DNA from: Marinobacter bryozoorum
Lineage (GTDB): Bacteria; Pseudomonadota; Gammaproteobacteria; Pseudomonadales; Oleiphilaceae
Assembly: GCF_023156245.1 (NCBI RefSeq)
Contig: NZ_JAKZAH010000007.1
Coordinates: 62,001 to 126,000 of the forward strand
Length of the DNA stretch: 64,000 nt
Reading direction: 5' to 3'
How positions within the stretch are numbered: position 1 is the first letter of the stretch; every line of letters starts with the position of its first letter. Made by a program: the position numbers and the translations under genes. This document shows, piece by piece, positions 21,836 through 53,133 of the stretch. The notes below the pieces were generated by a model. The model saw only the letters and a program-made list of their open reading frames with translations, was not told where the DNA came from and made no database searches.

Positions 21836-21946
21836 GGCTCAGTGTCCCTGGGGGCTTTCAGAGCAGGGGCATGGATGCCCCGGAAGCGTTGGGGTGGCAG
21901 GACACCCCTCCAACGCGGCGGCGAAAGCCCCCAGGGGCGATGAGCC
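21836..21946 (+). repeat. Cloverleaf repeat copy A (A(N)GGA-loop superfamily)
   Basis: Outer stem: GGCTCA (21836-21841) with TGAGCC (21941-21946), and a perfect 14-bp arm 21846-21859 with 21923-21936 (CCCTGGGGGCTTTC). Inner hairpin 1: GGGGC, loop ATGGAT, GCCCC (21866-21881). Inner hairpin 2: GCGTTGG and GGTG arms around loop GCAGGA (21886-21916). It lies between the convergent ribbon-helix-helix gene and nosL. Copy B at 53 kb shares the core but has different stems. Confidence 0.85.
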
Positions 21947-22004
21947 TCCACTCAAACCCCGCAGGCCTGTAGAATACTGAACTAACAAACCTGCAGCGCA
22001 CCCG

Positions 22005-22550
22005 CTACATGGAATGAGAACCACCCATCCCGGAAGACATCCCACCCCCGGAACTCAGATGCTCCATCGTCACATCAGCAAAGGCCACAACCTCACCGCC
22101 GAATTCCGAGGCAAACGCCTCAGCCGCTGACTCCTCAGCAAACGACGCCAGGGTAGGCCCCATGGCACCAGTACGCTCCGACCCGACCACATAGAACGCC
22201 TCGCGGGCATCAATCAGTGCCGCATCATCCGGCTTGTCCCACTCGGTCTCGGCCATATCGTGCACGTACAGCACATGGTCACGGTTCACGTTCTCCGGCT
22301 GTAATACCCAGGAGAACATATCCTTGGTGGAGCAGAACTTGCGAACCTGCTGCTCTTTGCCGGAAATCGACTCACCCTTGGGCCCCGGGAAGCGGGTGAT
22401 CACCATGCCACAAACGTGGCACTCATCGCCGGACTCGAAATGAACCGGCTCAGGCTTTGCCTGGGCCGTTTCCTCCGACCCGGAACAAGCGGCCAGGGCG
22501 ACCGCGAAGGCCATGATTAAACCGGTGCGCACTACAAACGAAAGATTCAT
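22005..22550 (-). CDS. nosL: NosL copper-binding lipoprotein
   Basis: A 181-residue lipoprotein. The lipobox ALAAC puts the lipidated cysteine at position 22. The mature part has the copper motif CHVCGMVI and the NosL pattern ending in a Met/Gly/His-rich tail (GGGMSSGMGGSHSM). NosL delivers Cu(I) for the CuZ centre of nitrous oxide reductase with NosDFY. It lies 15 bp after nosY, last in the nos operon. The start has GGAG seven bases upstream. Confidence 0.94.
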   Translation of the reverse strand: MNLSFVVRTGLIMAFAVALAACSGSEETAQAKPEPVHFESGDECHVCGMVITRFPGPKGESISGKEQQVRKFCSTKDMFSWVLQPENVNRDHVLYVHDMAETEWDKPDDAALIDAREAFYVVGSERTGAMGPTLASFAEESAAEAFASEFGGEVVAFADVTMEHLSSGGGMSSGMGGSHSM

Positions 22551-22565
22551 CAACAGACTCCAGGT

Positions 22566-23396
22566 TCAGATACGACGATTACGGAACAGTGCCCAGGCAC
22601 CGGCCAGGGGAATAACAAACCAGACCGCCAGGGCAACCCACAGCCCGCCTGGCCCCATGGGCAGGTCCGAGCCCAGGCTGAGCACACCGGTCAACTGAGC
22701 ACCACCCTCGAAGGCCACGATATTGAGCAGACGGTAAATATCCGTGGGATTGAGCAACAGCAACCAGGGCAGAAGATCCGGGTTCAGCTTGCCTTCACTG
22801 GCCACCAGTACGCCCAGCAATACCAGGTCAAAGATCAGTACAAAGAAAAACCAGATCGCCAACGCCAGGCCTGCTGCCAGCGGCTTCTCACTCACCCGCA
22901 CGCTCACCAGGTACGCCAGCGCGATAAAGCCCCAGCCCAGCAGGACGGTAGACAGGATGAACCGGAACATGGCCGCCGCCAGCACGCCGACAGCCACGTC
23001 CTCCACCAGCAGGGCAATGGCAACTCCTGCGACACCGAAGCCGATCAGTGTCGCCAGCGCCAGGGTAAGTCCATGACCGAGGAACTTGCCAAACAGAAGC
23101 TGGCCGCGGCTCAGGGGATAGGTCATCAGCAGCAACAGCGTGCCGCCCTCCTCTTCCCCCACGATCGCATCGTAGGCCAGCAAGAGCGCGATCAGGGGAA
23201 TCAGGAAGATCCCCAGGCTCGCCAGGCTGGCAATGGTCGCCGGTGTGGAGGCGTAGCCCACACTGCCCGAGGCGGCGGCACCAAACCAGGCAATGCCCAG
23301 GGCGAGAGTGGCAAAGACCATGGAAATGGCCACCATCCAGCGGTTGCGCAGACTGTCCGCCAGCTCTTTACGGGCGATGGTCCAGATGCTGTTCAT
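22566..23396 (-). CDS. nosY: NosY ABC transporter permease
   Basis: A 276-residue inner-membrane permease with about six hydrophobic helices and an N-terminal amphipathic start (MNSIWTIARKELADSLRNRW), the ABC-2 permease form. It partners NosF and NosD in the complex that matures the copper centre of NosZ. Its ATG overlaps the nosF stop (ATGA). Length and order are normal for the family. Confidence 0.94.
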   Translation of the reverse strand: MNSIWTIARKELADSLRNRWMVAISMVFATLALGIAWFGAAASGSVGYASTPATIASLASLGIFLIPLIALLLAYDAIVGEEEGGTLLLLMTYPLSRGQLLFGKFLGHGLTLALATLIGFGVAGVAIALLVEDVAVGVLAAAMFRFILSTVLLGWGFIALAYLVSVRVSEKPLAAGLALAIWFFFVLIFDLVLLGVLVASEGKLNPDLLPWLLLLNPTDIYRLLNIVAFEGGAQLTGVLSLGSDLPMGPGGLWVALAVWFVIPLAGAWALFRNRRI

Positions 23397-24322
23397 TGCA
23401 CGCCTCCGCGATGGGCCAGGCCACCGGAACCGATAAAGTGCACGTAGATATCCTCCAGGGTGGGTTCCGAAATATCCAGGTCGCGAACCTCGCCGGTGGC
23501 CAGGAGCTTGTGGATCATGGCCATCTTGTGGTCGTGGGCCACCTCTATGTGCAGGCTCCCGTTTTCCATACCGCTCACCGCAGCGCCAAGGCCGGCATCC
23601 TCAGCCACGCCCGCGAGCGGACTATCGGCGTTGGCCGGGGCGACGGTAAGCGATACCGGCATATTCGCCTGTCGGCGAAGGGATGGCAGGTTACCGGCCG
23701 CTTTCAGGGTACCCTGGGTAAGAATCGCCGCGCGGTCGATATAGGGCTCAACCCCCGGCAACACGTGGGAACACAGGACAATACCCGTGCCTTCATCCCT
23801 CAGGTCACGCAGCAGGCGATAGAGATCAGCCGTCGCCACCGGGTCCAGCCCCACCGTGGGCTCATCCAGCATCAGCAGTTTTGGCGTTCCCAGTAAAGCC
23901 TGGGCCAGGCCAAGACGCTGGCGCATCCCCTTGGAGTAGGTCTTGGTGCGGGAATCCATGGCATCGCCCAGGCCCACCTGCTCCAGCAGCACGGGCACCT
24001 GCTTCAGGGAAGCACCCTTGAGGCGGGCAAAATGGCTGAGAATCTCGCGACCGGTCAGCTGCGGGTAGAACATCACGTTCTCCGGCAGGTAACCGATATG
24101 CTGGCTCACTTCTGGGTCACCGGCGTTTCCACCGAGAACAGACACCTTACCCTGCTGGGGGTGCATCAACCCCAGGATCAGTTTGATGGAAGTGGTCTTG
24201 CCGGCACCGTTATGGCCGAACAAGCCGAGGATTTCACCCGGCTCCAGGGCCAGGTCGATCCCGGTCAGCACCGGGCTCTTGCTATAGCGATAGCTCACGT
24301 TTTCAAGACGAAAGCAGCTCAT
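23393..24322 (-). CDS. nosF: NosF ABC transporter ATPase
   Basis: A 309-residue ATPase. Walker A is GHNGAGKTT (about 35-43), the signature is YSKGMRQRLGLAQALL, Walker B is LLMLDEPTVGLDP, and a switch histidine follows in LCSHVLPGVE. It powers NosY for NosZ maturation. It overlaps both neighbours by four bases, so nosD-nosF-nosY are translationally coupled. Confidence 0.95.
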   Translation of the reverse strand: MSCFRLENVSYRYSKSPVLTGIDLALEPGEILGLFGHNGAGKTTSIKLILGLMHPQQGKVSVLGGNAGDPEVSQHIGYLPENVMFYPQLTGREILSHFARLKGASLKQVPVLLEQVGLGDAMDSRTKTYSKGMRQRLGLAQALLGTPKLLMLDEPTVGLDPVATADLYRLLRDLRDEGTGIVLCSHVLPGVEPYIDRAAILTQGTLKAAGNLPSLRRQANMPVSLTVAPANADSPLAGVAEDAGLGAAVSGMENGSLHIEVAHDHKMAMIHKLLATGEVRDLDISEPTLEDIYVHFIGSGGLAHRGGVQ

Positions 24323-25587
24323 GGAATCTCCGAACGCAAGGTTTCAGGGGGACGCATCAGGGGGTGGGAATCGGTCACACCGGCCGCCTTCACCACCGGG
24401 AAAGCCTCCTGCACCCAGCGGATCGTATCCACCGCCGGACTGTGCATCAGGATGCGGGCTTCCGGATAGGTCCAAAGCAACCGGTCCACATTGTCATTGG
24501 GCTCGTAAGGCACGTCCCCCAGACCATTCTGGTCCCGGTCCCAGCCCAGATAATCACTCCAGTAATTACCACGACCATCCTTCGACCACTCCTGGGTGCG
24601 GGTCGCCACATACTTCACCTGGCGCTGATTATTCAGGAAGGCATTGGAAAACACCTCGTTCTCCTCGGAACCGGCGGTCAGGTGAATGCCCAGGTTGCTG
24701 TTGGCAAACAGGTTATTCTCGAAGGTGTTGTACAGGGAGTTGTAGATGAACACCGCCTTCCCCTCACCACCGGAAATCGCCACACCGCCGGTCTGCCCAC
24801 TGGACACCCCTGTCACCACATTGCCCCGCAGGGTGGAATTGGTGATGTAGTTCATCAGAATGCCGTAGTTCTCGTCATTCTCGGACCGGTTATCGATGAC
24901 CGTCAGCCGCTTGCTCTGCATCAGCGCATAGCCGGTCCGGGTGCCGGAAGTACGGTTGCCCTCCAACAGGTTGTCCATGGAGTACATGTAGTGGATGCCA
25001 TAGCGCAGGTCCGCCATGGTGTTATTGCGAATGGTGTTCCTGTTGGCCGTCTCGATATAGATCGCATCCCGGGTCTGACGAATGTCGTTACCCTCGATCA
25101 GTGCCCCGGTGGTATTGAACAGGTGAATCCCGTTACCCCGGTCCTGGGACCGTATACTGGTATCACCACGGATCACATTATTCCGTACCGTCACATCCGG
25201 CGTCGCGTCCAGCCAGACCCCAAACGCCGGCCCTTGCAGGCGATTGTCCTCAACCACGGAGCCCTTCGCCTCCCGGGCCACGAAAATCCCCGCATCCAGC
25301 TCATTCAGGTCTTCGCCCCAGTTGCGAATCTCACAACCACGGAGCGTCACCCCGGGCGCGGTAATATCAACGGCATTGCCGGAACCTCCCCCGTCAATCA
25401 CCGTCTCCGGCGCACAGACAATCGTCACACCGGCCACGTTAATGTCCAGCGGCGAAATCTGTTCAGGTGGTAGTTCAAACGATGCACCAGGCTCCAGCGC
25501 ATCCAGGTCTTCTTGCAGGTCCGCATTCGCGGTCAACGCAAACAGAGCGACTGACAGGGCCACTCCATAACGCGATAGATGAGGCAT
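24319..25587 (-). CDS. nosD: NosD periplasmic copper-maturation protein
   Basis: A 422-residue protein from MPHLSRYGVALSVALFALTA, a signal peptide ending near TANADLQ. Upstream in-frame codons would run through repeat copy C and are rejected. The mature chain is a right-handed parallel beta-helix with many NosD/CASH repeats (VEDNRLQGPAFGVWLDAT, IEGNDIRQTRDAIYI). NosD interacts with NosL and NosFY to assemble CuZ. It is separated from nosZ by 255 bp, unusually long for this operon, because a structured repeat sits between. Confidence 0.93.
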   Translation of the reverse strand: MPHLSRYGVALSVALFALTANADLQEDLDALEPGASFELPPEQISPLDINVAGVTIVCAPETVIDGGGSGNAVDITAPGVTLRGCEIRNWGEDLNELDAGIFVAREAKGSVVEDNRLQGPAFGVWLDATPDVTVRNNVIRGDTSIRSQDRGNGIHLFNTTGALIEGNDIRQTRDAIYIETANRNTIRNNTMADLRYGIHYMYSMDNLLEGNRTSGTRTGYALMQSKRLTVIDNRSENDENYGILMNYITNSTLRGNVVTGVSSGQTGGVAISGGEGKAVFIYNSLYNTFENNLFANSNLGIHLTAGSEENEVFSNAFLNNQRQVKYVATRTQEWSKDGRGNYWSDYLGWDRDQNGLGDVPYEPNDNVDRLLWTYPEARILMHSPAVDTIRWVQEAFPVVKAAGVTDSHPLMRPPETLRSEIP

Positions 25588-25639
25588 TAAAACGTTTCTC
25601 AGGAAGTTCAGTTTCAAGGCGGCTTGCACCGCTGCATGA

Positions 25640-25757
25640 GCAATCCAGTCGGAGACCACTTTCCAGAACTGTGCGAAGCCAGGGATGGCGGAGCCCAAGC
25701 GACACAGGGATGTGCCTTTAGGAGCGTGTTCTGGAAAGTGGTCTTCGACTGGGTTGC
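25640..25757 (+). repeat. Cloverleaf repeat copy C (inside the nos operon)
   Basis: A 15-bp perfect outer stem (25654-25668 with 25729-25743, GACCACTTTCCAGAA) is extended by CCAGTCG/CGACTGG and GCAA/TTGC. Two small inner hairpins read on the plus strand: GCC, loop AGGGAT, GGC (25678-25689) and CAC, loop AGGGAT, GTG (25703-25714). It lies between nosZ and nosD, with its core antisense to the operon. Copy D at 31.9 kb shares the core in inverted orientation. Confidence 0.85.
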
Positions 25758-25808
25758 CGCACCGCTACTCTACGGCAAACTACTCTTTTTAGCTCAAAAG
25801 TCCGAAGA

Positions 25809-25834
25809 CTGGGGCCCCACTCAAGGGGCCCCAG
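25809..25834 (-). terminator. Strong hairpin just after nosZ
   Basis: CTGGGGCCCC and GGGGCCCCAG form a perfect 10-bp stem with a 6-nt loop, 9 bp after the nosZ stop. On the minus strand a T-containing stretch follows. It may attenuate transcription into nosDFYL or protect the nosZ mRNA end. Confidence 0.6.
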
Positions 25835-25842
25835 GAGAGCTA

Positions 25843-27738
25843 TCAGGCCTTCTCAACCAGCATCCGGCCACCCATCTCCATATGGAGCGCATGGCAGAAC
25901 CAGTTACAGTAGTACCAGTACACACCCGGCTTACCGGCGGTAAAGGTCACTGAAGCGGTCTGCTGGGGACTGATCTCCATGCTCACACCATGGTTCACCA
26001 TACAGAAGCCGTGGGTCACGTCCTCAATGGTATCCAGGTTGGTCACGTAAACCGTCACCTCATCCCCTTCCTTGACCTTGAACTCTGTCATACCGTACTG
26101 CGGCGCAACAGAAGTCATATAAACCCGGACCTTGTTGCCATCACGAATCACCTCGTTGGCACCCTCCAGGGTAATACCATCCTTCTCCGCCTGCTCACGG
26201 GCACTGGCAAAGTATGGATCATCACGATCATAGATCTTCTTGGTCTTGATCTGATCACGACGTACCAGGATACAGTCGTGGGGCTCGGCATAGGTCGGGC
26301 CGTCGTGGACAAGCTTCATCTCCTCACCGGAAATATCGATCAGCTGATCGTTTTCCGGATGCAGCGGGCCTACCGGCAGGAAGCGGTCCTTGGAGAACTT
26401 GGACAGAACCACCAGCCACTTGCCGTCCGCATCACGGGACTCGGTCAGGGAGGCGTGGTTGTGGCCCGGCTGATAGTGCACGTCCAGCTTCTGGCGGATG
26501 TAATTCACATCCTCACCGTTGTAGGCCTTGATGGCATCCGCAATGTTCCACTTGCACACCTGGCTGTCGATAAACAGCGTGGTGTAGGCGTTGCCACGAC
26601 CGTCAAAGGTGGTGTGCAGCGGCCCAAGGCCCAGCTCCGGCTCGGCAACCACGGTGTCACGCAGCTCGATCTTGTTGTCGAACAGGTCATCCAGCTTGTC
26701 GATCTGGATCACGGAGGCTGTCGGAGACAACTTGCCGTTGGCAATGAAGTACTTGCCATCCGGCGAGGTATTCAAACCATGGGGGTTCTTGGGAATCGGG
26801 ATGTAACGGGTTACCTCGGACTCACCGCGGCCGTCCACTACCGGCACCTTGGAGTCGCCTAGGGTCTTGTAGTTGCCAGCTTCGATGGCGGCTTCGATAC
26901 GCTCAACGTTGAATACCACAACCCAGTCGCGGTCATTACGCATGGTGCCGGCCAGGTCGAGGGCCTTCTCGGAGTTGTAGCAGGTAGAAGCCGCGTACTT
27001 GCCGGTATAGTCAGCATCGGTGTTGTCCAGGTTACCGTCGACAATCACCTGCCAGGCCACTTCCATGGTGTCCGCATCGATGGCGTTGAACATGGTATAG
27101 CTCTTCTCGAGACTGTACTCACTGCCATCGTTCGGGTGCGGGATTACAAATTCTGCGTTGCAGAAGACGTACTTGGTGCGGGGCACTTTCTGCAGCCGCA
27201 AACCGTGGATCGCCTGTACGTTCGGGATGTGGGTAATCTTGTCCGTCTTCATGATATCCAGACGGATACGGGCTACCCGAGTGTTGGCCTTGTCGTTGAT
27301 GAACAGGTACTTGCCGTCGTAACGACCGTCTTCCATGGAAATGTGGGGGTGGTGGCAGTCGCCGTTCAGGTACTGCTGGTCACCACCAAGAATTTCCTTA
27401 CTCTCGTTGGTAATACCCCAACCTGTGGCAGAGTCCACGTTGAATACCGGGATCCGCATCAGCTCACGCATGGAGGGCACGCCCAGTACGCGCACCTCGC
27501 CCTGGTGACCACCACTCCAGAAGCCGTAGTACTCGTCCAGCTCACCGGGGCCCACGTGGATCTTGTTCTTGGCTTCCTCAACAGCAGCAGCCCAGGACTC
27601 ACGGGTCATGACAGCACCGCCAAGACCCGTGGCGCCAGCCACGCCAGCCAGGGCAGCCGCACCCATAAAGCGGCGACGGCTCAGACCGCCTTCGGCCTGC
27701 TCCGGGGTTGCCTTTTCCAGCTCTTCGCGTTTTTTCAT
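25843..27738 (-). CDS. nosZ: Nitrous oxide reductase NosZ
   Basis: A 631-residue periplasmic enzyme reducing N2O to N2. The ATG at 27738 is chosen over an upstream TTG, with GGAG about 10 bases ahead. A Tat signal ([17 protein letters not shown]) marks it as a clade I, Tat-exported NosZ. The seven-bladed propeller with CuZ histidines (for example DCHHPHIS and GHNHAS) leads to a cupredoxin domain with the CuA motif [12 protein letters not shown] at the end. It follows nosR by 47 bp. Confidence 0.97.
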
Positions 27739-27785
27739 AGTATCCAACTCCGTTCTTCGTAATGGCGGTTATGTTTTTACTTTCT

Positions 27786-30965: not shown

Positions 30966-31718
30966 TTACTGACCGATCTGGGTCAGGCGCATGGGATCCG
31001 AGATAAACAGTTTGCTGCGGTTGACCCGCACCAGGCCGTTGCTCTTCAGGTCCGCCAGAATGCGCGAGAAGGTTTCCGGCTGCATGGCCAGGCGGGAGGC
31101 CACCAGGCACTTGGGCAGCGGCAGTTCCACTTCACCGCCCTGCTGACGGGCACTCTCGGGCAGCAGGTCAATCAGGTAGCGGATGAGCCGGTCCCGGGCA
31201 CTCTGCACGGTCATGATTTCCAGTTCGTGGAAACGGCTGACGGCGCGCTTGGCGTAGTGCTGGAGGGCCGCCCGCGCATACCTTGGCTCACGGTCAATCA
31301 GGTCCTGGTAGACACCAACGGGAATCATCAGCACTTCGCTGTTCTTCAGAGCCTCGGCATAGCAGGCATACCGGGGAGGATCAGCGTAGATCATGACTTC
31401 GGCGAAGCAGTCGCCAGGCTGGAGGCTGTCGAGGGTACGATCAACCCCGGAGGCATCCAGTCGGTACAGGCGCAGGCGGCCAGAGATCACGAAGAAGAAG
31501 TGATGGGCAGGCATGTCCTGACGGTACAGCAGCTGGTGGTGTCCAAGCCTGACGCGGCGGGACTGCTGGAGCACGTGGTCCAGGTCTTTTTTGTCCAGGC
31601 TTGCGAACAGGGGATGGTCCTGGAGGGCAGCCAGGCCGCTCTCTTCCTCGAAGGGTTTGTTGGCGGCGAGCAGTACGGGCTTTTCGTAGCGCTTGTCGGT
31701 GGTTTGTGCGAGTGCCAT
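30966..31718 (-). CDS. dnr: Crp/Fnr family regulator, DNR type
   Basis: A 250-residue regulator. A cyclic-nucleotide-like domain (about 35-150, RQDMPAHHFFFVISGRLRLY) is followed by a winged helix with ETFSRIL in the recognition helix. Its Glu and Ser-Arg match the residues by which FNR reads TTGAT. FNR-type N-terminal cysteines are absent, so oxygen sensing by an Fe-S cluster is unlikely; DNR proteins sense NO through heme. It lies between the nar and nos operons and is the likely activator acting at the FNR-type boxes in this window. Confidence 0.87.
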   Translation of the reverse strand: MALAQTTDKRYEKPVLLAANKPFEEESGLAALQDHPLFASLDKKDLDHVLQQSRRVRLGHHQLLYRQDMPAHHFFFVISGRLRLYRLDASGVDRTLDSLQPGDCFAEVMIYADPPRYACYAEALKNSEVLMIPVGVYQDLIDREPRYARAALQHYAKRAVSRFHELEIMTVQSARDRLIRYLIDLLPESARQQGGEVELPLPKCLVASRLAMQPETFSRILADLKSNGLVRVNRSKLFISDPMRLTQIGQ

Positions 31719-31913: not shown

Positions 31914-32011
31914 CCGGTGACACTTTTCCAGACACGCTCCTAAAGGCACATCCATGTGTCGCTTGGGCTCCGCCATCCCTGGCTCCGCACAGTCTGGAAA
32001 AGTGTCCCCGG
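31914..32011 (-). repeat. Cloverleaf repeat copy D (between dnr and the nar operon)
   Basis: A 15-bp perfect outer stem (31919-31933 with 31992-32006, GACACTTTTCCAGAC) is extended by CCGG/CCGG. Read on the minus strand, inner hairpins show loops AGGGAT (31975-31980) and ATGGAT (31950-31955). The core matches copy C closely, but the outer stem differs and remains complementary. It lies 3' of ppiC in sense orientation, 167 bp before its stop. Apart from this and the dnr promoter sites, the 31719-32178 gap holds nothing recognised. Confidence 0.85.
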
Positions 32012-32178: not shown

Positions 32179-32985
32179 TTACTGCATCAAAGGCGAATCC
32201 GGTAGCTCCAGGTCGACACCCTCCACACCGGTTTCAGCCGCAAGTACCTGCAGGTACTGACGGAACGCCCGGCGGGTGACGCTTTCGCTCAGGTACTGGC
32301 GAATCTGGGGTTTGACGTGTTCGTAAGGCAGCTGTTCGCCGTCGATACGCTGGTCGACCCGGACGATGTGCCAGCCGTAGCGGCTTTCGATGAGTTCCGG
32401 ATGAAGCCCTTCCTGCAGGCTGAGCACCGGGCGCTCGAATTCCTCGACGGTCTGGCCCTTGCTGATCTGGCCCAGGCTGCCGCCCTGGTGGCGAGACTCG
32501 CAGGCGGAGTACTGCTTTGCCAGCGGAGCGAACTGGGCGCGACCATCGAGCAGGGAGGACAGCAGCTGGCGGCCGGCCTCTTCCTGGCGGATGCGCTCTT
32601 CCACATCATCCGGCGCCGCGGCCAGCAGGATGTGGCTGACGGCCATCAGGGTCGGGCTGCGGAACCGGGCCGGGTTGGCGGCGTAGAAGCGTTCGCAGTC
32701 TTCTTCGGACGGGTCGGGAACGTTCAGTTCCATTTCCAGCACCCGGGCAATCCGGTCTTCTTCGTCAATGGATTCCGGAAGCTGCAGGGTTTCTGCCTGT
32801 TGCAGCAACAGCTGGCGAATCACCAGGCTGCGGGCGGCTTCGTGCCAGGCTTCAGCCAGTTCTTCCGCCGGGTGGTGCTGCATTTCCCGGGCGATGTCGT
32901 CTTCGTGGATGAGGGTCTCACCCACGTAGACCGGCGGGAACTGGTTTCTGGGCTTGTCGGCTTCGCCGGTGGGGATCAGTTGCAT
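32179..32985 (-). CDS. PpiC-type peptidyl-prolyl isomerase of the nar operon
   Basis: A 268-residue protein starting MQLIPTGEADK, with GGAG ten bases upstream. The C-terminal half has the parvulin domain (SHILLA, GGSLGQISKGQTVEEFE, ESRYGWHIVRVD); the N-terminal part is helical and NifM/SurA-like. No signal peptide, so cytoplasmic. A parvulin gene follows narGHJI in Pseudomonas, and here too it is the last nar gene; it probably helps fold the nitrate reductase. A 231-bp gap with an inverted-repeat element separates it from narI. Confidence 0.85.
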   Translation of the reverse strand: MQLIPTGEADKPRNQFPPVYVGETLIHEDDIAREMQHHPAEELAEAWHEAARSLVIRQLLLQQAETLQLPESIDEEDRIARVLEMELNVPDPSEEDCERFYAANPARFRSPTLMAVSHILLAAAPDDVEERIRQEEAGRQLLSSLLDGRAQFAPLAKQYSACESRHQGGSLGQISKGQTVEEFERPVLSLQEGLHPELIESRYGWHIVRVDQRIDGEQLPYEHVKPQIRQYLSESVTRRAFRQYLQVLAAETGVEGVDLELPDSPLMQ

Positions 32986-33011
32986 GGTGATGGTCTCCAA
33001 AAACGTTATTT

Positions 33012-33187
33012 GCCACGGAATCCACGGAAGAACACGGAAAAAAGAACTCTTTTTCTACGGACTCTTAAGGACGAACTCAGAAAGCAGCAAGATGCTTCAT
33101 CTTCTCATCCGTGATTACAGTGCCATCCCTGGCTGATTTCTCGTTGCTCTTTTGTACTTTTCCGTGTTCTTCCGTGGATTCCGTGGC
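33012..33187. repeat. 176-bp element with perfect 30-bp terminal inverted repeats
   Basis: The ends, 33012-33041 and 33158-33187, are exact reverse complements over 30 bp (outer part GCCACGGAATCCACGGAAG). Each arm itself contains the word CCACGGAA or CACGGAAA repeatedly. The 116-bp interior encodes nothing credible. It fills the narI-ppiC gap. It could be a MITE-like mobile remnant or a very stable mRNA hairpin inside the nar transcript. It is unrelated in sequence to the cloverleaf repeats. Confidence 0.85.
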
Positions 33188-43474: not shown

Positions 43475-44133
43475 ATGTCCGAGACACCTGCCAGCATCCT
43501 GCTGATTGATGACCACCCGCTGTTGCGCCAGGGCATCAAGCAACTGATTGAAATGGAAGATGACATGCAGGTGGCCGGACAGGCCAGCAACGGCCCTGAA
43601 GGTATCCGCAAAGCTGCTGAACTCGAGCCTGACCTGATCCTGCTGGACCTGAACATGCCGGAGATGAACGGCATTGAGGTGCTGAAGCAAATGCGGGAAC
43701 AGGGGGTAGCCTCACGTATCGTGATCTTTACCGTTTCCGACCATGAAGACGATGTGGTGGCAGCCCTGAGGGCTGGCGCGGATGGCTACCTGCTGAAGGA
43801 TATGGAGCCGGAGGACATGATCGCCGAGCTGAAGCAGGCAGCCGTGGGCAAAATGGTGATCAGTGACCGCCTGACCACGCTGCTCGCCCAGGCCCTTCGT
43901 TCCCAGAAGCCACAGCAGTCAGCGCGACCTGACTTTGACAGCCTGACCCCCGTGAGAAGGATATCCTGCGGCTGATTGCCGAGGGGCTGTCCAACAAGAT
44001 GATTGGCCGCAAGCTGGATATCAGCGATGGCACGGTCAAGGTGCATGTGAAGCACCTGCTAAAGAAACTGAACCTCCGGTCCCGTGTTGAGGTGGCGGTT
44101 TGGGCCGTTGAGGAAGGTTTGCATAAGGGTTGA
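43475..44133 (+). pseudogene. narL: narL response regulator with a one-base frameshift
   Basis: The reading frame begins as a normal NarL receiver (IDDHPLLRQGIKQLIE, phospho-acceptor in LILLDLNMPEMNG, KDMEPEDM). It leaves frame at the C-run 43947-43951: five C are present where six would restore [20 protein letters not shown]. Without correction it stops at 43975 after 166 residues, losing the helix-turn-helix. The second part, to the stop at 44133, is an intact LuxR-type domain ([20 protein letters not shown]). Either a sequencing error in a homopolymer, or a true or phase-variable mutation. NarX and NarL-type sites are intact, which favours error or recent change. Confidence 0.9.
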
Positions 44134-44247
44134 TTGTCCGGAGTGACAGGCTTTCAGGCAGCCTGCTTGTTGGGTGCCAGAGCTCCTGGTCTGAACTCAT
44201 ATCTTCACTTTAGGAGCCTTTCCAGCCTGAGGATGTGGTGCCGGGCA

Positions 44248-44357
44248 TGGGGCACCGGCCCGGTTTTTTTGCCGCCGCAATTCACGGTCCTTCCCTGGAC
44301 CGGCCTTGCTCCGGGCCATCCATGGCCCTGCTCTAAAAAAACCGGTCCGGCACCCCA
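44248..44357 (-). repeat. Cloverleaf repeat copy E
   Basis: Outer arms 44248-44270 and 44335-44357 pair at 20 of 23 positions (ending in CCGGTTTTTTT). Read on the minus strand, inner hairpins are GGGCC, loop ATGGAT, GGCCC (44313-44328 region) and GGTCC, loop AGGGAA, GGACC (44286-44301 region). The core GAGCA, hairpin, GGAGC also occurs in copies A and B, joining the families. It lies 3' of narL. Confidence 0.85.
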
Positions 44358-44440
44358 TACCTCTAACAGCCCCAATATCGCTGACAACCCCCCAGGCCAC
44401 GTAGTTTTATCTTTCGGTCAGCAGACAGTCTGACGGGGAT

Positions 44441-44540
44441 GGGGTAAGGGCGCTTTTTGGAGCTGCGACACGGACGTCGCTTTAGCAAGGCCGGCCCAGG
44501 GAGGGCCGTGAATTGCGGCGTAAAAAAGCGCCCTTGCCCC
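44441..44540 (+). repeat. Cloverleaf repeat copy F
   Basis: Outer arms 44441-44458 and 44523-44540 (GGGGTAAGGGCGCTTTTT) pair at 17 Watson-Crick positions and one G-T. Inner hairpins on the plus strand: GCGAC, loop ACGGAC, GTCGC (44465-44480) and GGCCC, loop AGGGA, GGGCC (44493-44507). Inverted relative to copy E, 83 bp away. Between the narL stop and ubiT (526 bp) nothing else but these two repeats and the ubiT promoter is seen. Confidence 0.88.
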
Positions 44541-44588
44541 AGCCCCAGACTCCCAACCCACAGGCCTAAATAGCAACAACCTGAGAGC

Positions 44589-44630
44589 TTGCCGGATATC
44601 AACCAAAATACACAGCAAACGCAGTAACCT
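44589..44630 (+). promoter_or_regulatory. FNR/DNR-dependent promoter of ubiT
   Basis: TTGCCGGATATCAA (44589-44602) fits the FNR/DNR box at 8 of 10 informative positions. TAACCT at 44625-44630 lies 32 bp away centre-to-centre. The predicted start near 44637 gives a short leader with GGAG before ubiT. Confidence 0.6.
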
Positions 44631-44659
44631 AGGCCCAACCAAATGGCCTGGAGAACCCA

Positions 44660-45172
44660 ATGCTGCCTGCGCTGCCGAAACTGACCGTCCCCGAATCCCT
44701 GCTCCTGCAGTGCCAGCATGCCCTGCAAGAATACGCCCCATCACCGGCGCCGATGATCCGCGACGCCGAACGCCGTGTGCCCTTTCTGTTCAAACAGCTG
44801 ATCACCGAAGCCACCCTCAACCGGATGTTTGCCCAAGCCATCCACGAGGGCGAATTTGACGACTTCGAAGGACGAACCCTCAGGCTGGAAATCAACGGCG
44901 GACAGCCGGGCGTAACCCTGGGCTTCTGGCAGGGCCGACTGAGAATTGTTGAGGGCGAGGGAGAAGCCACCATCCGTGGCGGCTGGTCCGCGTTCTACAA
45001 GCTGGCCAACCGCAAGCTGGACCCGGACCAGCTGTTCTTTCAGCGCAAGTTGATCATTGAAGGCAACACCGAGCTCGGACTCGGCATCAAGAACCTGCTG
45101 GACAGCCTGGAATGGCGACTTATTCGAGCACCTGCCAAGAACGGGCTCAGGAAACCGGTTTTTCCTCTTTGA
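44660..45172 (+). CDS. ubiT: UbiT, SCP2-domain factor for anaerobic ubiquinone synthesis
   Basis: A 170-residue protein with an SCP2 lipid-binding domain (FKQLITEATLNRMF, GVTLGFWQGRLRIVEGEGEATIRGGWSAFYKLANRKLDPDQ read in parts, KLIIEGNTELGLGIKNLLDSL). UbiT binds isoprenoid quinone intermediates for O2-independent hydroxylation. ubiV and ubiU lie 1.0-2.9 kb downstream on the opposite strand, completing the UbiTUV set. GGAGAACCCA precedes the ATG. It overlaps the end of the DUF2892 gene by 26 bp, tail to tail. Confidence 0.9.
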   Translation: MLPALPKLTVPESLLLQCQHALQEYAPSPAPMIRDAERRVPFLFKQLITEATLNRMFAQAIHEGEFDDFEGRTLRLEINGGQPGVTLGFWQGRLRIVEGEGEATIRGGWSAFYKLANRKLDPDQLFFQRKLIIEGNTELGLGIKNLLDSLEWRLIRAPAKNGLRKPVFPL

Positions 45173-45350: not shown

Positions 45351-45406
45351 AGCGAGGCTCCTCAAGGACATATGAATATACTTTTAACTTATTGCCCGGA
45401 CTACGC

Positions 45407-45422: not shown

Positions 45423-45733
45423 TTGTCCAGCCCCTGGAATGGAACGATTGCAAAGCCTGAGCTTCCCAGCGGCATCCGGGTGGCCCGGACACAGTACTTC
45501 CACGGACGTGAGGGTGAATCTGTTTGCGCTTTTCCTGACCCCGGGTTAGATTCATCTCAAATCCCTTTGATTCCAGAATTGCCTTGCGACCTGAAACTGC
45601 CCTGACTCATTCCCGGATTGTCATCCCTGACAAGCCCGGCCTCCCTACAGCGTTACTTTCCTGACGCTGGGCTCACGCACGCGCCCGGTCCAGCCAGCAA
45701 ACAAAATTCACGATTACCTTACCGGAGACAAGC

Positions 45734-46120: not shown

Positions 46121-46206
46121 CCGACAACCCGTAATACCAGTACGGCGGGCACTCAGCGCATATCGAAGAATTCCCGATGCAAGCGCCTGCCGGGCCCTGC
46201 CAGGTG

Positions 46207-47100: not shown

Positions 47101-47112
47101 GATCTCAGCACC

Positions 47113-48108
47113 TTATTTCCACTTGCGATGGTACGCGCCGAGGGTGGTAAGCCCACCTTCGGACAACCCGGCGAGGGTTGACTGCCAGGCCGGGTCGACC
47201 GTGAATTGCGGCCCTGTTTCCAGCCTGTCCAGGGCCTGGCGCCAGGTGCGGGCCACATCGGCGATATAGGCGGGACTGCGCTGCCGGCCTTCAATCTTCA
47301 CCGCGCTGATACCCAGGGCCTTGAGCTCTGGCAGCAGGTCCAGGGTATTCAGGCTCACCGGTTCCTCGATGGCGTGGTACACATCACCCTCCACCTCGAA
47401 CCGGCCCTTGCACAGCGTCGGATAGCCGGCAGGCTCCCCCCGGGCGTAACGATCGATCAGCACCTCATTGAGGCGGGATTCCAGCCCGCCATCGGCGGTC
47501 TCTTCCCAGCGCACCGCCTTGGCCGGCGAACAGGCCCCCTTGCTATTGGGGGATTCGTCGGTGAGATAGGAGGACAGGTAACAGCGGCCCTCGGCCATGA
47601 TGCACAGGCTGCCGAAGGCAAACACCTCCAGCTCAACCGGGCTGTGTTCCGCCACGCCCTTCACCTGGTCCAGCGACAGGACCCTGGGTAGCACGGCACG
47701 ACGGATACCGAAGTTGTCCTTATAGAACCGCAACGCTTCGTAGCTGGTGGCCGAGCCCTGAACCGACAGGTGGCGGGGCAGGTCGGGATAGCGGTTGGCG
47801 GCGTAGTCCAGCAACCCCATGTCGGCCAGGATCACCGCATCCACCCCCAGGCTGGCAGCCCGGTCCACCGCAGCGGTCCACTGCTGCCAGCCCTGGGGCT
47901 GGGGGTAGGTATTGATGGCGCAGAACACCCGGGCCCCCTTGCCATGGGCATAGGCAACGCCCTCAGCGGCCCGCTTGTCGTTGAAGTTGAGGCCGGCAAA
48001 CTGGCGGGCGTTGGTGCTGTCCCGGAACCCCAGATAGACAGCGTCTGCACCGTTGTCGACGGCGGTTTTCAGGGCGGGCAGGCTGCCGGCAGGGCAGACA
48101 AGTTCCAT
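47113..48108 (-). CDS. ubiU: UbiU, U32 family subunit for anaerobic ubiquinone synthesis
   Basis: A 331-residue protein starting MELVCPAGSLPALK; an upstream ATG at 48267 would add unrelated sequence and lies before the predicted promoter. Cysteine ligands are visible in GSLCIMAEGRCYLSSY, SKGACSPAKA and TLCKGRFEVEG. It forms the UbiUV hydroxylase with UbiV. A DNR-type box precedes it, linking quinone synthesis to denitrification. Confidence 0.93.
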   Translation of the reverse strand: MELVCPAGSLPALKTAVDNGADAVYLGFRDSTNARQFAGLNFNDKRAAEGVAYAHGKGARVFCAINTYPQPQGWQQWTAAVDRAASLGVDAVILADMGLLDYAANRYPDLPRHLSVQGSATSYEALRFYKDNFGIRRAVLPRVLSLDQVKGVAEHSPVELEVFAFGSLCIMAEGRCYLSSYLTDESPNSKGACSPAKAVRWEETADGGLESRLNEVLIDRYARGEPAGYPTLCKGRFEVEGDVYHAIEEPVSLNTLDLLPELKALGISAVKIEGRQRSPAYIADVARTWRQALDRLETGPQFTVDPAWQSTLAGLSEGGLTTLGAYHRKWK

Positions 48109-48140
48109 GGCATTCTCCGGTGGCTGAAAGACTCCCGGAG

Positions 48141-48182
48141 ACGCTACCGTTAAAGGGCCCAGGGTGCCTTGACCGTTGTCAG
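48141..48182 (-). promoter_or_regulatory. FNR/DNR-dependent promoter of ubiU
   Basis: TTGACCGTTGTCAG (48169-48182) matches the FNR/DNR box at 9 of 10 positions. TAGCGT on the minus strand (48146-48141) lies 32 bp away centre-to-centre. The predicted leader is about 26 bases. Confidence 0.6.
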
Positions 48183-48227
48183 CGCAAGTGCAACCGGGCC
48201 GCCGGATACCCACTTGGCAGTATCCTA

Positions 48228-48313
48228 CGGGGTACCACCTACTCTCGATTAAACGCTTTAAAGTCAATTAATTAACATAGAGTTACAGGTAATTTCATTC
48301 AGTAACTACCCCT
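48228..48313. promoter_or_regulatory. NarL-type heptamers in the ubiU-chemoreceptor gap
   Basis: CGGGGTA (48228-48234) and TACCCCT (48307-48313) each fit the NarL heptamer, but they are not paired as 7-2-7. Weak evidence that nitrate acts on the chemoreceptor or ubiUV. Confidence 0.35.
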
Positions 48314-48393
48314 GCTCATACCCAATGATGCCAATATCGGTAACCGGCCCTTTGGGCCACAATGGCAGGACGACTTAATGAAGGGGCAGTCCC

Positions 48394-50415
48394 ATGAACT
48401 TCATCAACAATCTTTCCATGCGCGGCAAACTGATCACACTGGTTTTGCCGGCGCTTCTCGTCATCATTTTCTTCGCCGTTGGCAGCATCACCGACAATGC
48501 CGCCGAGTACCGGAATATGAGCCACCTACAGGACATGGTGAAGCTGGCGGAAATCGGCGACCCACTGGTGGAAACCCTGCAGAAAGAACGTGGCCGCTCC
48601 GCAGTGGCGCTGGCTGCCGAACCACGCTCCGATGCCGAGCAGCAAGCACGGCGAGCACTGGAGAACCAGCGCCAGCAGACTAACGCCGTCCTGGGGGACT
48701 ATCGTTCGGAAGTTCAGGCATTGCTGGCCGACACCAGCTTTGATGGAGCGGTTACGGAGAGCATTGATCGCCTTGAATCGGAACTGAGCCGCCTCAAGAC
48801 TCTCCGACAGGATATCGACCGCCGCAACGTGACTGGTGGTGAGGCCGGCAACCGCTACACAGCACTGATTACCGAAATCATCGACCGGGTTCCGCTGCTT
48901 GTCCGCCGGGCCACCGATGCAGAACTTTCCCGTGAGATCAACGCCTACTATGCCCTGGCACAAACCTCCGAGATGGCAGGTAGGGCGCGGGCTGCAGGTG
49001 CGGCACTGATCCGCTCAGGTGATTTCGATCTTCCCGCTGTTGGCAGGGTAACTGCTTTGAGCGGACAGCAGGACGCCTGGTACCGCAATGCCGTTGATAT
49101 GCTAGCCGCCGACGCCCCCCTGCGTCGTTCGCTGGGCGCCTTCGTGGTCGGCCCGGAAGTACAGGCACTCCAGGCCCAACGGGAAACCCTACTTAGCAGT
49201 GCTTCCGGCATGTATGCCCTGGACGCGAACGAGTGGTTCGAGGTATCCACCCGGGCCATCGACGCGCTGAACGCTATCCGCCAGGAAATGCTGACCCAGG
49301 TCGAGGCCATTGCCACAACGACAGTCGCCGGGGCGAGAAATGACCTGATCAGCGCCTCGGTGATCGCGGGTGCTGCCGTAGTGCTCGTGATCGTCCTGAT
49401 GACCATCATCATCCATGCCATACACCGTCAGGTGAGTGAACTGCTCACCGGTGTGCAATACGCCATGGATGAGAAAGACCTGACCCGGGAAATACCCGTG
49501 TCCAGCAAGGACGAGACCGGCACCATCGCCAGGGCGATCAATGAACTGTTCAAGCGGTTCGCCGAGGCGCTGGCCCAGATCGACAAGGCCAGCGTGCAAC
49601 TGGCCACCGCCACTGAGGAGACCAGTTCCACCGCCAACCAGAACACCTCCCAGGTGAAAGATCAGCAGCAACAGATCGAACAGGTCGCCGCCGCTACCGA
49701 GGAGATGTCTGCCACCTCCGAGGAAATCTCCCGCAACACCCAGCAGGTGGCGGATGCTTCCAGCAGCGCCATGGAAAAGAGCCGCACCGGTGAGCAGGTC
49801 CTGCACTCCAGTGTTCGCCAGATCCGCGACCTGGCCGGCTCGGTGCAGGAGGTGAACCAGGTGATCGAGGAGCTGGAAAATCGCAGCAGCACCATCAGCG
49901 ATGTGGTGGATGTGATCCGCAAGGTGGCCGACCAGACCAACCTGCTGGCACTCAACGCCGCCATCGAGGCCGCCCGGGCCGGCGAGCATGGCCGCGGCTT
50001 TGCCGTGGTCGCCGATGAGGTTCGTACCCTGGCGCAACAGACCCACGAGTCCACCACCAAGATCGAGGATATCATCAACGGCTTCAGGGAAATTACCGAC
50101 AGCGCCAGTCGCTCCATCATTGCCAGCCACAAACTGGCGGATCAGACCAGCTCCCAGGCGGAGCAGATGGAACAGACCTTTGCCGAGATCCTGATGGACG
50201 TGAACAGCATCTCTGACATGGCGACCCAGATTGCCACCGCGTCGGAGCAGCAGGTGTCGGTCACCCGTGAACTGGCCGGTAATATGGAAAGCGTCAGCGA
50301 GTCCGCCATCCTGACCCTCACCGGGTCACAGGAAATTACCCAGGTGACCACCGAGCAGGCCCGCCTGGCCCGGGCACTTCAGGACCTGGCCAACGAGTTC
50401 AAGGTCGCCTCCTGA
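48394..50415 (+). CDS. Methyl-accepting chemotaxis protein with NIT domain
   Basis: A 673-residue chemoreceptor. TM1 (about 12-32) and TM2 (about 322-346) flank a periplasmic NIT (nitrate/nitrite-sensing) type domain beginning near [18 protein letters not shown] follows, then the signalling domain with the hairpin tip ([20 protein letters not shown]). It probably steers the cell towards or away from nitrate or nitrite, in line with its neighbours. It is monocistronic with a strong terminator. Confidence 0.9.
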
Positions 50416-50422
50416 GGCGTAA

Positions 50423-50439
50423 CGGGGCAACCTGCCCCG
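50423..50439 (+). terminator. Short hairpin after the chemoreceptor
   Basis: CGGGGCA, loop ACC, TGCCCCG, directly after the stop. It stands ahead of the main terminator. Confidence 0.4.
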
Positions 50440-50443
50440 GATA

Positions 50444-50478
50444 GCAAAAAGCCCGGTCGCGATGACCGGGCTTTTTGC
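50444..50478. terminator. Strong bidirectional intrinsic terminator
   Basis: A perfect 15-bp stem, GCAAAAAGCCCGGTC with GACCGGGCTTTTTGC, around a 5-nt loop. A- and T-runs on the two sides allow it to end both the chemoreceptor and the SSS small-subunit transcripts. Confidence 0.88.
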
Positions 50479-50499
50479 GTTTCGGGAAGTCCCGCCGGG

Positions 50500-50634
50500 T
50501 TACAGCAGGTCCTCGTCCGAGTTTTTCGCCTTGCGCACATCCCGGGCAACCGCCCAGCAGATGACGCCAAGCACACCCAGGGTCAGGGCGGGCCAGACCA
50601 GGATGTAGGCTCCGTAGACAAGTTCGTTATTCAT
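50500..50634 (-). CDS. 44-residue putative transporter small subunit
   Basis: A very short gene encoding 44 residues: one TM helix (ELVYGAYILVWPALTLGVLG then VICWAVARD) and a charged tail (RKAKNSDEDLL). Its ATG overlaps the stop of the SSS symporter gene (ATGA), so it is translationally coupled. Such mini-proteins accompany this clade of sodium:solute symporters and are called transporter small subunits. The exact role is unknown. Confidence 0.8.
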   Translation of the reverse strand: MNNELVYGAYILVWPALTLGVLGVICWAVARDVRKAKNSDEDLL

Positions 50635-52301
50635 TTGGCGGCCTCCGGTACCAGGTGGGTATCGTCCTCAACGTCGTCATAGTCCCCGACGCGCTGACGG
50701 ATCAGGTTGAAGTCGAAGCGCTCCTTGCTGAACAGGGTCATGGCCGTACACACCACCGCGCTGGCGCCATAGGCAGTCAGTGATGCTACCAGCACCATAT
50801 AGTCCCGCAGGAAGCCAGTGGCGAAGAACAGCATGGCCGCCAGGGTAACCACACCGGCCACAAGCCCTGCCGCACGACCAAAGAAGCCGAACACCATCAG
50901 GCCGATCACCACAGCCCCGCCGACCGAGGCCAGTACCTCGAAGAACAGTACCGTCAGGCCGGTCATTTCCAGCAGCTCAAAGCGCGCAATGCAGAACAGC
51001 GCCATGGCTGCCACCACGGACCAGGTAAACGCCGCATTGGTGACCCGATCCCAGTAGCAGCTGACGATGACCGGAAACACAATGGCGCCCCACAATGCGC
51101 CGACGAACACCAGCATGACCAGGATATCCAGCGAGAAGCTGGCGAAGATCAGCCCGGCCACCGTGGCCACAATCATGGTGATACGGCCCACCAGCATCAT
51201 GACGCGGGGGCTGGGGTTATCACCGGCGATGTTTTTGCCATACACGTCCGCCATCATGATGGTGGAGAGGGCCGACAGGTCCGAGTCCGCCGTGGAGGAC
51301 AGGGAGCCGATCACGAGGACAAAGAACAGGGCGACAAACACCGGTGACAGGTAGGTGGAAACCATCTGCGGGATCAGGTTGTTCATTTTCCCGTCAATGG
51401 GTTCCATACCGACTGACAGCGCCATCAGGCCGATCATGCCCAGGCCGATCACAATGGCGCCATAGCCGATGGTAGCTGTCACGAAGGTGGACTTGATGTG
51501 TTTCTCGCGTACCGCGAACAGCCGCTGGGAAATGGTCTGGTTACCAATGGCATAGGCCAACACGGCCACAAAGAACGGAGCACCCTGGTGCAGGATGGCT
51601 TCGACGGAGAACAGGTTGGCCTGCTCGTCGGTCAGCCGGCTGAGTCCCTCCACCATGACCGAGGGGCCACCTGCGGAGAACAGCACCGCCGGGATAATGA
51701 TAATGGCAATGGCCATCAGGGCCACCAGCTGGGCAAAGTCGGTAAATACGGAAGCCCGGAAGCCCGAGGTGAGCGTGTAGGCCAGCACCCCTACCCCGGC
51801 CACGATCACACCGGTTTCGAAGGACAGCGGTGACAAAACGGATACCAGGGCGCCCGCCGCCGTGAAGTTGACCATGAGGCTGATCACACTACCGAGAATG
51901 TTGGAGACGGCCAAAATCATCTGGCTGGATGCGCCATGACGGGCATGGATCAGTTCACCCAGTGTATGGCCATTCGGCGCCAGTTTGCGGAAACGGCGAC
52001 CGAAGGGATAGATGAACAGGATCATCAGCGCTCCCCAGAGCCCGTAATGGATAGGGCCGGAAACGCCATAGGTGTAGCCGGATGTGGCCGCAGCGTAGAA
52101 AGACGCAGCCCAGATCCAGGTGGCGGTCATACTGGCCGCCCCCATACCGAAGCCAACATGGTGACCGGCCACCATAAAGCCGGAGGTGTCCTCTTTGTCC
52201 TTGCGGATCAGCAGGGTAAGGAGGTAAGTGCCGCCATAGAAGGCCGCAAGCAATAGCAACACAGTGAGTGTTGAAAACTGGGTAAAGCCGTTCTCGTTCA
52301 A
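50631..52301 (-). CDS. Sodium:solute symporter family protein
   Basis: A 556-residue inner-membrane symporter with about 13 hydrophobic helices. SSS features include RKDKEDTSGFMVAGHHVGFGMGA near the start and the ADSDLSALSTIMMADVYGKN region. Substrate cannot be assigned: SSS members move acetate, proline, urea, amino acids or other solutes. It shares an operon with the 44-residue small subunit. Ribosome site and promoter were not distinct. Confidence 0.88.
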   Translation of the reverse strand: MNENGFTQFSTLTVLLLLAAFYGGTYLLTLLIRKDKEDTSGFMVAGHHVGFGMGAASMTATWIWAASFYAAATSGYTYGVSGPIHYGLWGALMILFIYPFGRRFRKLAPNGHTLGELIHARHGASSQMILAVSNILGSVISLMVNFTAAGALVSVLSPLSFETGVIVAGVGVLAYTLTSGFRASVFTDFAQLVALMAIAIIIIPAVLFSAGGPSVMVEGLSRLTDEQANLFSVEAILHQGAPFFVAVLAYAIGNQTISQRLFAVREKHIKSTFVTATIGYGAIVIGLGMIGLMALSVGMEPIDGKMNNLIPQMVSTYLSPVFVALFFVLVIGSLSSTADSDLSALSTIMMADVYGKNIAGDNPSPRVMMLVGRITMIVATVAGLIFASFSLDILVMLVFVGALWGAIVFPVIVSCYWDRVTNAAFTWSVVAAMALFCIARFELLEMTGLTVLFFEVLASVGGAVVIGLMVFGFFGRAAGLVAGVVTLAAMLFFATGFLRDYMVLVASLTAYGASAVVCTAMTLFSKERFDFNLIRQRVGDYDDVEDDTHLVPEAAK

Positions 52302-52811
52302 ATCAGAGCCTCTTTTTCTGAAACACAGGTATCCCGCCGGGGCCGGGCCAATTATTGGCGGCCGCCAGGATCAGGGGTCTGGAGTTTCCCGCTTGGGTTT
52401 GTTGCCAGGCTGGCAACGGCAGGGTGGGCTGTTTCAGCCCGGTTTCAGTGAGGCTAAGGGAAACTCAGGTGTGGCAGAAGCTCACACAGTTCTTTAGACG
52501 TCATGATATTTGCACTCCTCAAAATCGAATACTGAACTGGCCGGCGCATCATTGTGCCGTGCAGTGTTCAAGCTTTTGGATGCGAAAATCTGACAAATCG
52601 CCGGTTTTCGGTTAGAAATCCGGGGTCAGAATGAGGGAGCGCAAGACCATACGAGAAAACCGGCACCGAGTCCAGTCTTTAGTGGGCGTAATATTAGTGT
52701 TCAATTTTGACCAGTCCTAGCATAGTGGTTATTGGCCGGTTGAAGTCTGAGGGCGGTTATGGAGAGCCGACTTTTACAGTTTGCGGTATAAGGTCTGGTG
52801 GCTGGCGCTGA

Positions 52812-52905
52812 GGCAAGGGCGCTTTTTACGCCGCAATTCACGGCCCATCCATGGGCCGGCCTTGCTAAAGCGACGTCCTGTCGCAGCTCCAAAAGCGCCC
52901 TTGCC
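52812..52905 (-). repeat. Cloverleaf repeat copy G
   Basis: Perfect 15-bp outer stem 52812-52826 with 52891-52905 (GGCAAGGGCGCTTTT). Read on the minus strand: GGCCC, loop ATGGAT, GGGCC (52842-52857) and GCGAC, loop AGGAC, GTCGC (52870-52884). The core matches copy F in inverted orientation; hairpin loops and outer arm differ slightly. Confidence 0.88.
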
Positions 52906-53040
52906 CCATCGCCGTCAGACTGCCTGCTGGCCGCCGGCAAGGAATAATGGAAATAAGGGTATTCGGTACCTTCGCCCGGTTAACCAGAATCGGAGCTGAC
53001 AGGAGCCGTTGAGATATCCGAAAAGTCACGAGTGTGAGGA

Positions 53041-53133
53041 TGGGGGAGGTCTTTCAGAGCAGCGACATGGATGTCGCGGAAGCGTTGGGGTGGCAGGACG
53101 CCCCTCCAACGCGGCGGCGAAAGACCTCCCCCA
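53041..53133 (+). repeat. Cloverleaf repeat copy B
   Basis: Perfect 15-bp outer stem 53041-53055 with 53119-53133 (TGGGGGAGGTCTTTC). Hairpin 1: GCGAC, loop ATGGAT, GTCGC (53062-53077). Hairpin 2: GCGTTGG and CCAACGC arms around GGCAGGAC (53082-53112). Core positions equal copy A, while both the outer stem and hairpin-1 stem have changed on both sides. Confidence 0.88.

Follow-up and report, generated by a model that had tools for sequence, protein, structure and literature searches.

TwoAYGGAY-type two-hairpin repeats dispersed in Marinobacter bryozoorum look like scattered CsrA docking sites

The window analysed here is a stretch of 64,000 nucleotides of the Marinobacter bryozoorum genome (assembly GCF_023156245.1, contig NZ_JAKZAH010000007.1, positions 62,001 to 126,000), and it holds seven repeats, A to G, each found where the original prediction had placed it and each able to fold into a long outer stem (7/7; Table 1). 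Two of them lie at a nos cluster of NosL-, NosD- and NosZ-type genes (window 22005-27738), where A follows nosL and C lies between nosZ and nosD. Gene contexts are given according to gene calls made with a codon-usage script.

Table 1 Repeat copies in the window and their surroundings. The strand is the one on which the copy reads GGA; gene strands are in brackets.
Feature	Position	Strand	Arms, motifs and RF01731 score	Context
Copy A	21836..21946	+	24-nt arms 21836-21859 / 21923-21946 flanking a two-hairpin core; A(N)GGA 21871-21875, 21899-21902	NosL-type gene 22005-22553 (-); A ~60 nt beyond its stop codon
Copy C	25640..25757	+	C/D subfamily; 30-nt arms; A(N)GGA 25681-25685, 25706-25710; 29.2 bits	Between nosZ-type gene 25843-27738 (-) and nosD-type gene 24319-25563 (-, own gene call); antisense to each
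Copy D	31914..32011	-	C/D subfamily; A(N)GGA 31980-31976, 31955-31951	Between PpiC-type gene 32179-33000 (-) and Crp/Fnr-type regulator 30966-31718 (-); same strand as both
Copy E	44248..44357	-	A(N)GGA 44323-44319, 44296-44292; 41.8 bits	Left partner in divergent pair E/F
E-F spacer	44358..44440	.		Pair between response-regulator gene 43475-43975 (+) and SCP2-type gene 44660-45172 (+)
Copy F	44441..44540	+	A(N)GGA 44470-44474, 44498-44502	Right partner in divergent pair E/F
Copy G	52812..52905	-	A(N)GGA 52879-52876, 52852-52848; 31.0 bits	Left partner in divergent pair G/B
G-B spacer	52906..53040	.	Box GAGATATC, 1 mismatch to GCGNTATC, 35 nt ahead of the model start of B	
Copy B	53041..53133	+	A(N)GGA 53067-53071, 53095-53098; 38.9 bits	Right partner in divergent pair G/B; HemN-type gene 53204-54616 (-), B ~70 nt beyond its stop

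The arms of the outer stem are 23-33 nt long and 82-93% complementary in all seven copies. The window had 11 placements, partly overlapping, of perfect 14-base arms spaced 50-75 nt apart, and none was seen in any of 30 first-order Markov simulations. Read on the strand given in Table 1, every copy has A(N)GGA at both hairpin positions (7/7). Single-sequence folds of A, B, E, F and G leave the two GGA unpaired in hairpin loops, within a layout of long stem, 3x3 internal loop, GC helix of 2 bp and a pair of hairpins. The minimum-energy folds of C and D each leave only the first GGA unpaired in a hairpin loop, because an alternative pairing there replaces hairpin 2. The cloverleaf proposed originally thus keeps its long outer stem with two hairpins but loses its three leaves in A, B, E, F and G, while the stem changes quoted with it (GGGGC/GCCCC in A, GCGAC/GTCGC in B, and CCCTGGGGGC against TGGGGGAGGT in the outer stem) can all be read in the sequence. 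The core of C and D (TGTGCGGAGCC...GGAGCGTG in most relatives) differs from that of the other five copies, and neither C nor D is among the matches listed in their own genome by R1, a model derived from those five. At the sequence level, the repeats fall into two subfamilies, one of A, B, E, F and G (A-type below) and one of C and D. The window also contains, at 33012-33187, a perfect 30-nt inverted repeat, GCCACGGAATCCACGGAAGAACACGGAAAA, with arms 116 nt apart that enclose on the minus strand GCCAGGGATGGC, the hairpin 1 of C/D copies; it is possibly another CsrA-like element.

Contrary to the initial view that no described family has this layout, it is that of TwoAYGGAY (Rfam RF01731). A search of the window against Rfam at the gathering threshold returned no match, and at a relaxed threshold E, B and C matched TwoAYGGAY, each on its GGA strand. 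The RF01731 scores of E, B, G and C (Table 1) all lie below the 43-bit cut-off, and A, D and F had no match at E<=0.05 among the 135 of 234 candidates scored. Across the own genome, 24 matches were obtained at E<=0.05, two of them over the cut-off (53.3 and 45.5 bits) and both within the R1 set; C/D-type copies in relatives also exceed it, for example G005:C30:177482, G035:C7:328896 and G024:C11:1649343. Two features of the family recur here, namely a pair of hairpins each with an A(Y/N)GGA(Y) terminal loop (both hairpins in 83/85 R1 copies) and an external stem around them. The proposed single superfamily stands at the level of RF01731 and divides in two at that of the sequence. The available part of the first account classes TwoAYGGAY as probably an RNA and probably not cis-regulatory, its first table giving human gut, gamma-Proteobacteria and Clostridiales as sources (PMC2864571). 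In 2014, binding by CsrA was proposed and the external stem was described as poorly conserved (available part of PMC4333381); the literature located under the name TwoAYGGAY, in its available parts, contained no experiment on this CsrA hypothesis.

Copies are numerous, and the numbers given here are lower bounds because 9 to 150 candidates were scored per genome. R1 found 35 places in the own genome (G000) at E<=1, the weakest at 1.8e-6, and at E<=0.01 it had matches in 24 of 61 genus genomes, with 35 in G000, 23 in G078, 13 in G071, 6 in G030, 5 in G015 and one or two in each of nineteen others. With copy C as the query, blastn gave matches in 36 of 37 genomes, with nine matches in the own genome and at least 24 in 22 of the 37, most genomes having been scored for no more than 24 candidates. 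Related genomes thus hold further copies, as the original prediction implied, whether searched with R1 or with C.

Pairing in the stems was quantified on an alignment fitted to structure (A3; 85 copies from 7 genomes), which comprises 83 of the 107 R1 matches in the genus and 2 copies from the same stretches, the 24 matches left out having E of 4e-4 or worse. Over 25 pairs and 2118 stem cells, 98.2% were paired, compared to 75.2% after shuffling and 40.7-53.0% with partners slid by 1-3 columns, and both sides had changed in 21 of the 25 pairs. The covariation score was 0.597, against 0.153 for shuffled stems and at most 0.124 for slid ones, a control that retains relatedness; covariation thus exceeds its background, bearing out the claim that structure is what is kept. 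Because A3 was fitted to structure, we made a separate count on 90 C/D copies obtained with no covariance model. They are a subset of the matches to C, drawn from its 25 loci, another 60 stretches and the window, anchored on the core alone and selected by the core pattern and by pairing at 9 or more of the 12 inner positions. Both counts take in orthologous and paralogous copies. The C/D outer stem is 28 bp long, with Watson-Crick pairs in 75 to 90 of the 90 copies at each position, followed by 45 and then 22 of 90 at the next positions. All four Watson-Crick pair types are used at positions 12-28, and the variable arms are distinct in 88/90 copies: the sequence of this stem is largely free, and its pairing and length are fixed. 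These patterns show a fold under selection, with both loops kept.

We then asked on which strand the fold is kept. A G.T pair in a stem becomes A.C on the opposite strand, and a DNA palindrome predicts equal counts of the two. In A3, outer stems gave a G.T to A.C ratio of 76:10 and core helices one of 28:6, with 29:0 and 13:0 in the own genome (42:0 in total) and a weaker bias in G078 (23:9 and 6:4). The 90 C/D copies gave 60:5, and their slid controls 167:142, 140:135 and 125:119; at positions 33-40, outside the C/D stem, the ratio reversed to 38:118, so that flank composition is not the cause of the excess. When arms were folded alone, the GGA strand was the stabler in 51/85 A3 copies and the other strand in 5, the remainder lying within 0.3 kcal/mol, and the corresponding counts for C/D were 54/90 and 4; for copy D by itself, the fold of the opposite strand is slightly the better (-45.6 vs -48.2). 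The 19 copies lacking a co-oriented upstream gene gave 25:4 (14 to 0 when counted by copy). Pair members gave 10:1 where such a gene was lacking (10 copies) and 36:3 where it was present (34 copies), and among single copies the ratio was 15:3 for those antisense to codirectional genes (9 copies), 12:5 for codirectional sense ones (11 copies; 5 to 2 by copy), 26:4 for convergent ones (18 copies) and 0:0 for the one divergent case, with two unassigned copies at 5:0. Given this predominance of G.T across contexts, it is the fold of the GGA strand that has been preserved, whether as RNA or as single-stranded DNA, also where no co-oriented gene lies upstream. A DNA palindrome on both strands, or homogenisation of the arms by template switching, would yield equal G.T and A.C and was rejected on the ratios of 76:10 and 60:5. 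Because folded DNA, too, tolerates G.T better than A.C, the test is blind to the difference between single-stranded DNA and RNA; as a simple general means of telling DNA palindromes from elements that fold on one strand, it should apply to palindromic stems elsewhere.

Neighbouring matches less than 500 nt apart are arranged back to back (divergently) in 20 of 22 pairs, with 76-250 nt between matches. TwoAYGGAY-rich genomes of other families show the same arrangement, with 22 of 30 matches in G167 divergently paired and pairs, one of them convergent, in G349 and G239. The G167 pairs (L188-L205) sit within longer palindromic arrays with common outer ends (...GGTGACTTTTTGTTACGACAAAAAGT...), some of which carry extra CsrA-like hairpins, GAACAGGATGTTC and TTGCAGGGATGCAA. 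Relative to genes, A-type clusters avoid divergent intergenic regions (1/61 vs a background of 15/33, p = 1.4e-7) and favour convergent ones (30/61 vs 3/33), two of the 63 clusters having been left out for want of both neighbours. C/D loci show no such avoidance, 8/23 lying between divergent genes (of 25 loci, L241, which had no row, and L261, which had no gene call, were left out; 6/18 stretches of G349 and G239 were without a call). Codirectional singles comprise 11 sense and 9 antisense copies and show no orientation bias; a rule that copies lie antisense to the nearest gene, based on a hand tally of about 22 to 4, was abandoned, the excess on the 61 clusters being due to pairs.

A simple scan of 43900-44720 (E/F) and 52200-53260 (G/B) found no sigma-70-like promoter, no sigma-70 signal above shuffles was present upstream of either subfamily (A-type slightly below them, p 0.006), and terminator-like sites in the two pair regions were no more frequent than in shuffles. 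The box GCGNTATC, with at most one mismatch, occurs at -38 to -32 from the model start in 26/84 A-type copies (11/34 in the own genome; carriers include L050, L017, L021, L028, L084, L116 and L117) and in 0-4 copies in each of eleven other intervals of equal width. We rejected it as a promoter, as no -35 partner was seen and a motif search of C/D copies did not recover it. C/D copies have a conserved box of their own, TNCTCCNAAG, about 2 nt past the stem, and A-type copies also then show a C-rich/AAA stretch.

Orthologous sites, located via flanking genes in several genomes, allowed individual copies to be followed between species. At one site, the stems read GGGCATTTTC in G000, GGGAGTTTTC in G078 and GGGTATTTTC in G030, paired throughout save for one T.G in G030. 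Copy B is found at the same place in G030, with GAGGTC/GACCTC changed to CAGGTC/GACCTG, hairpin 2 rebuilt and one C.A mismatch. At such single orthologous sites, stems have been re-paired after mutation. Insertion into terminator loops, which would have supplied the stems, was ruled out because orthologues re-pair step-wise at one site and because the stem GAGGTCTTTC is common to B and two copies on contig C48. Among the regions of relatives inspected by eye (n=20 shown), G is absent in G030 and both G and B are absent in G033; loss of a single pair member does occur. Others of these regions have, at that spot, an intrinsic-terminator-like hairpin, another palindrome or neither (by eye). Four relatives' regions without B and G (L057, L064, L067 and L070) carry variants of another palindrome, GGGGTCAGAAGAAAGC...TTCTGACCCC, just beyond the stop of the HemN-type gene (by eye). 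In L020, L085 and L100, orthologous or partner copies are alike in stem and hairpin 1 and differ in the whole block of hairpin 2, which suggests gene conversion between copies.

The conservation noted originally for the A(N)GGA loops is confirmed by the larger set, in which both hairpins carry the motif in 83/85 R1 copies, 26-30 nt apart from GGA to GGA, although its identity as the CsrA/RsmA recognition motif in hairpin loops had gone unnamed. The loops read C-A-N-GGA-Y-G with a closing C-G pair in 82/85 copies at hairpin 1 and 69/85 at hairpin 2. In the available parts of the sources, the SELEX consensus of CsrA is RUACARGGAUGU with GGA in a hairpin loop (PMC4347634), and one CsrA dimer bridges sites 10-63 nt apart (PMC4066749); the loops fit this consensus, and their spacing falls within the bridging range. 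CsrA is present in 18/18 TwoAYGGAY-positive genomes, which is consistent with binding and not decisive, because 235/274 class genomes examined have CsrA anyway.

With many scattered copies keeping the fold and two GGA loops while the outer stem varies, the repeats look like spread-out CsrA docking sites. On this sequence evidence, we think it probable that they are dispersed TwoAYGGAY RNA modules, each holding one CsrA dimer. Each would be a self-folding RNA of about 115 nt in which the long outer stem holds two hairpins, whose C-A-N-G-G-A-Y-G loops copy the CsrA/RsmA site such that one dimer could bridge both. The GGA strand would be transcribed and bound by CsrA, and many copies together may titrate CsrA like a CsrB in pieces, or tie CsrA to neighbouring transcripts. 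Counting against this reading are the sigma-70 result, the absence of orientation bias among codirectional singles, the weaker strand bias in G078 and in codirectional sense singles, the slightly better fold of D on its opposite strand and the loss of hairpin 2 from the minimum-energy folds of C and D. A more tentative proposal, to which we give less than an even chance, is that tens of chromosomal two-site modules, with stem length and pairing fixed, stem sequence largely free and many of one subfamily set in back-to-back pairs, act as a distributed sponge that replaces one CsrB-type RNA; CsrA capacity would then depend on how many copies there are and on which regions are transcribed. If CsrA docking is right, tens of hidden binding modules would join the CsrA network in Marinobacter and in several further groups of gamma-proteobacteria, and with the functional strand, the kept loops and copy-rich genomes now named, the 2014 CsrA hypothesis becomes testable.

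The main rival is a strand-specific mobile hairpin of single-stranded DNA. On this account, the repeats are a non-autonomous element of the REPIN or attC type: a recombinase would recognise the GGA strand in the form of folded single-stranded DNA, the divergent pair being the unit and the likeness to CsrA sites arising by chance. Dispersed intergenic copies, strong variation in copy number between genomes and presence or absence at orthologous sites would all suit such an element, the divergent pairs (20/22, and 22/30 matches in G167) recall REPINs, the sigma-70 signal does not rise above shuffles, and the strand test does not separate single-stranded DNA from RNA. Chance, however, is a poor explanation for the presence of CsrA-type motifs in the two hairpins of 83/85 copies, and dead copies would not be expected to keep and re-pair their stems at single sites after species split. 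The G-B region had no match in plasmid or phage collections, and G078, with 23 copies, had no match at E<=0.001 to Y1_Tnp, the sole recombinase searched. Mobilisation by a RAYT, as in REPINs, was discarded on the same genome, since 9/10 genomes have some Y1_Tnp match but the copy-rich G078 has none. We regard a mobile element as unlikely.

We give still less weight to a 3'-end element resembling REP/BIME, in which the long stem would shield upstream mRNA from exonucleases or aid termination. The A-type preference for convergent over divergent regions fits it, as does the intrinsic-terminator-like hairpin that several of the 20 relatives' regions have at the same place after the HemN-type gene (by eye); such an element, however, would not need GGA loops, and the GGA-strand fold is kept even when antisense to adjoining genes. 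By eye, no U run was seen after the stem and a canonical terminator already precedes some of the copies (L029; L092, the orthologue of L019); the C/D copies between divergent genes (8/23 loci) also count against it. Most improbable, in our estimation, is a structured RNA serving some other partner (RNase III processing, a different RNA-binding protein or an unknown one): the C/D stem ends sharply at 28 bp, something that a CsrA site by itself would not call for, but in both hairpins the loop with its closing pair agrees with the CsrA site.

Among known systems, CsrB/CsrC and RsmX/Y/Z share with these repeats the repeated CsrA-type GGA hairpin loops. They are single small RNA genes with many sites and a terminator, whereas here there are two sites per element and many elements. 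A canonical sponge of this kind was rejected as an identity for the repeats, RF00018 and RF00166 giving nothing over the cut-off in the relatives searched: the CsrB model had no match in 19 genus genomes examined, and the RsmZ model exceeded its cut-off in 0/29 relatives, with weak matches (E<=0.1) in 23/29 and likewise in 6/14 control genomes. REP/BIME and REPIN elements are dispersed, intergenic and hairpin-forming, often in inverted pairs, as are the present repeats, which differ in having two conserved loops within a hypervariable paired stem and in reaching high copy number in one genome without a Y1_Tnp match. The reverse strand of Bacillaceae-1 RNA (RF01690) has also been proposed as a two-site CsrA-binding RNA (available part of PMC4333381); it occurs in different taxa. 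The closest likeness is to TwoAYGGAY itself, a known and little-studied family with the same two A-Y/N-GGA-loop hairpins inside an external stem. Compared to the available parts of its published accounts, dispersal in tens of copies, divergent pairing, stem-pairing statistics, a stem of fixed length (28 bp in C/D) and largely free sequence, and a strand bias revealed by G.T and A.C counts are new here.
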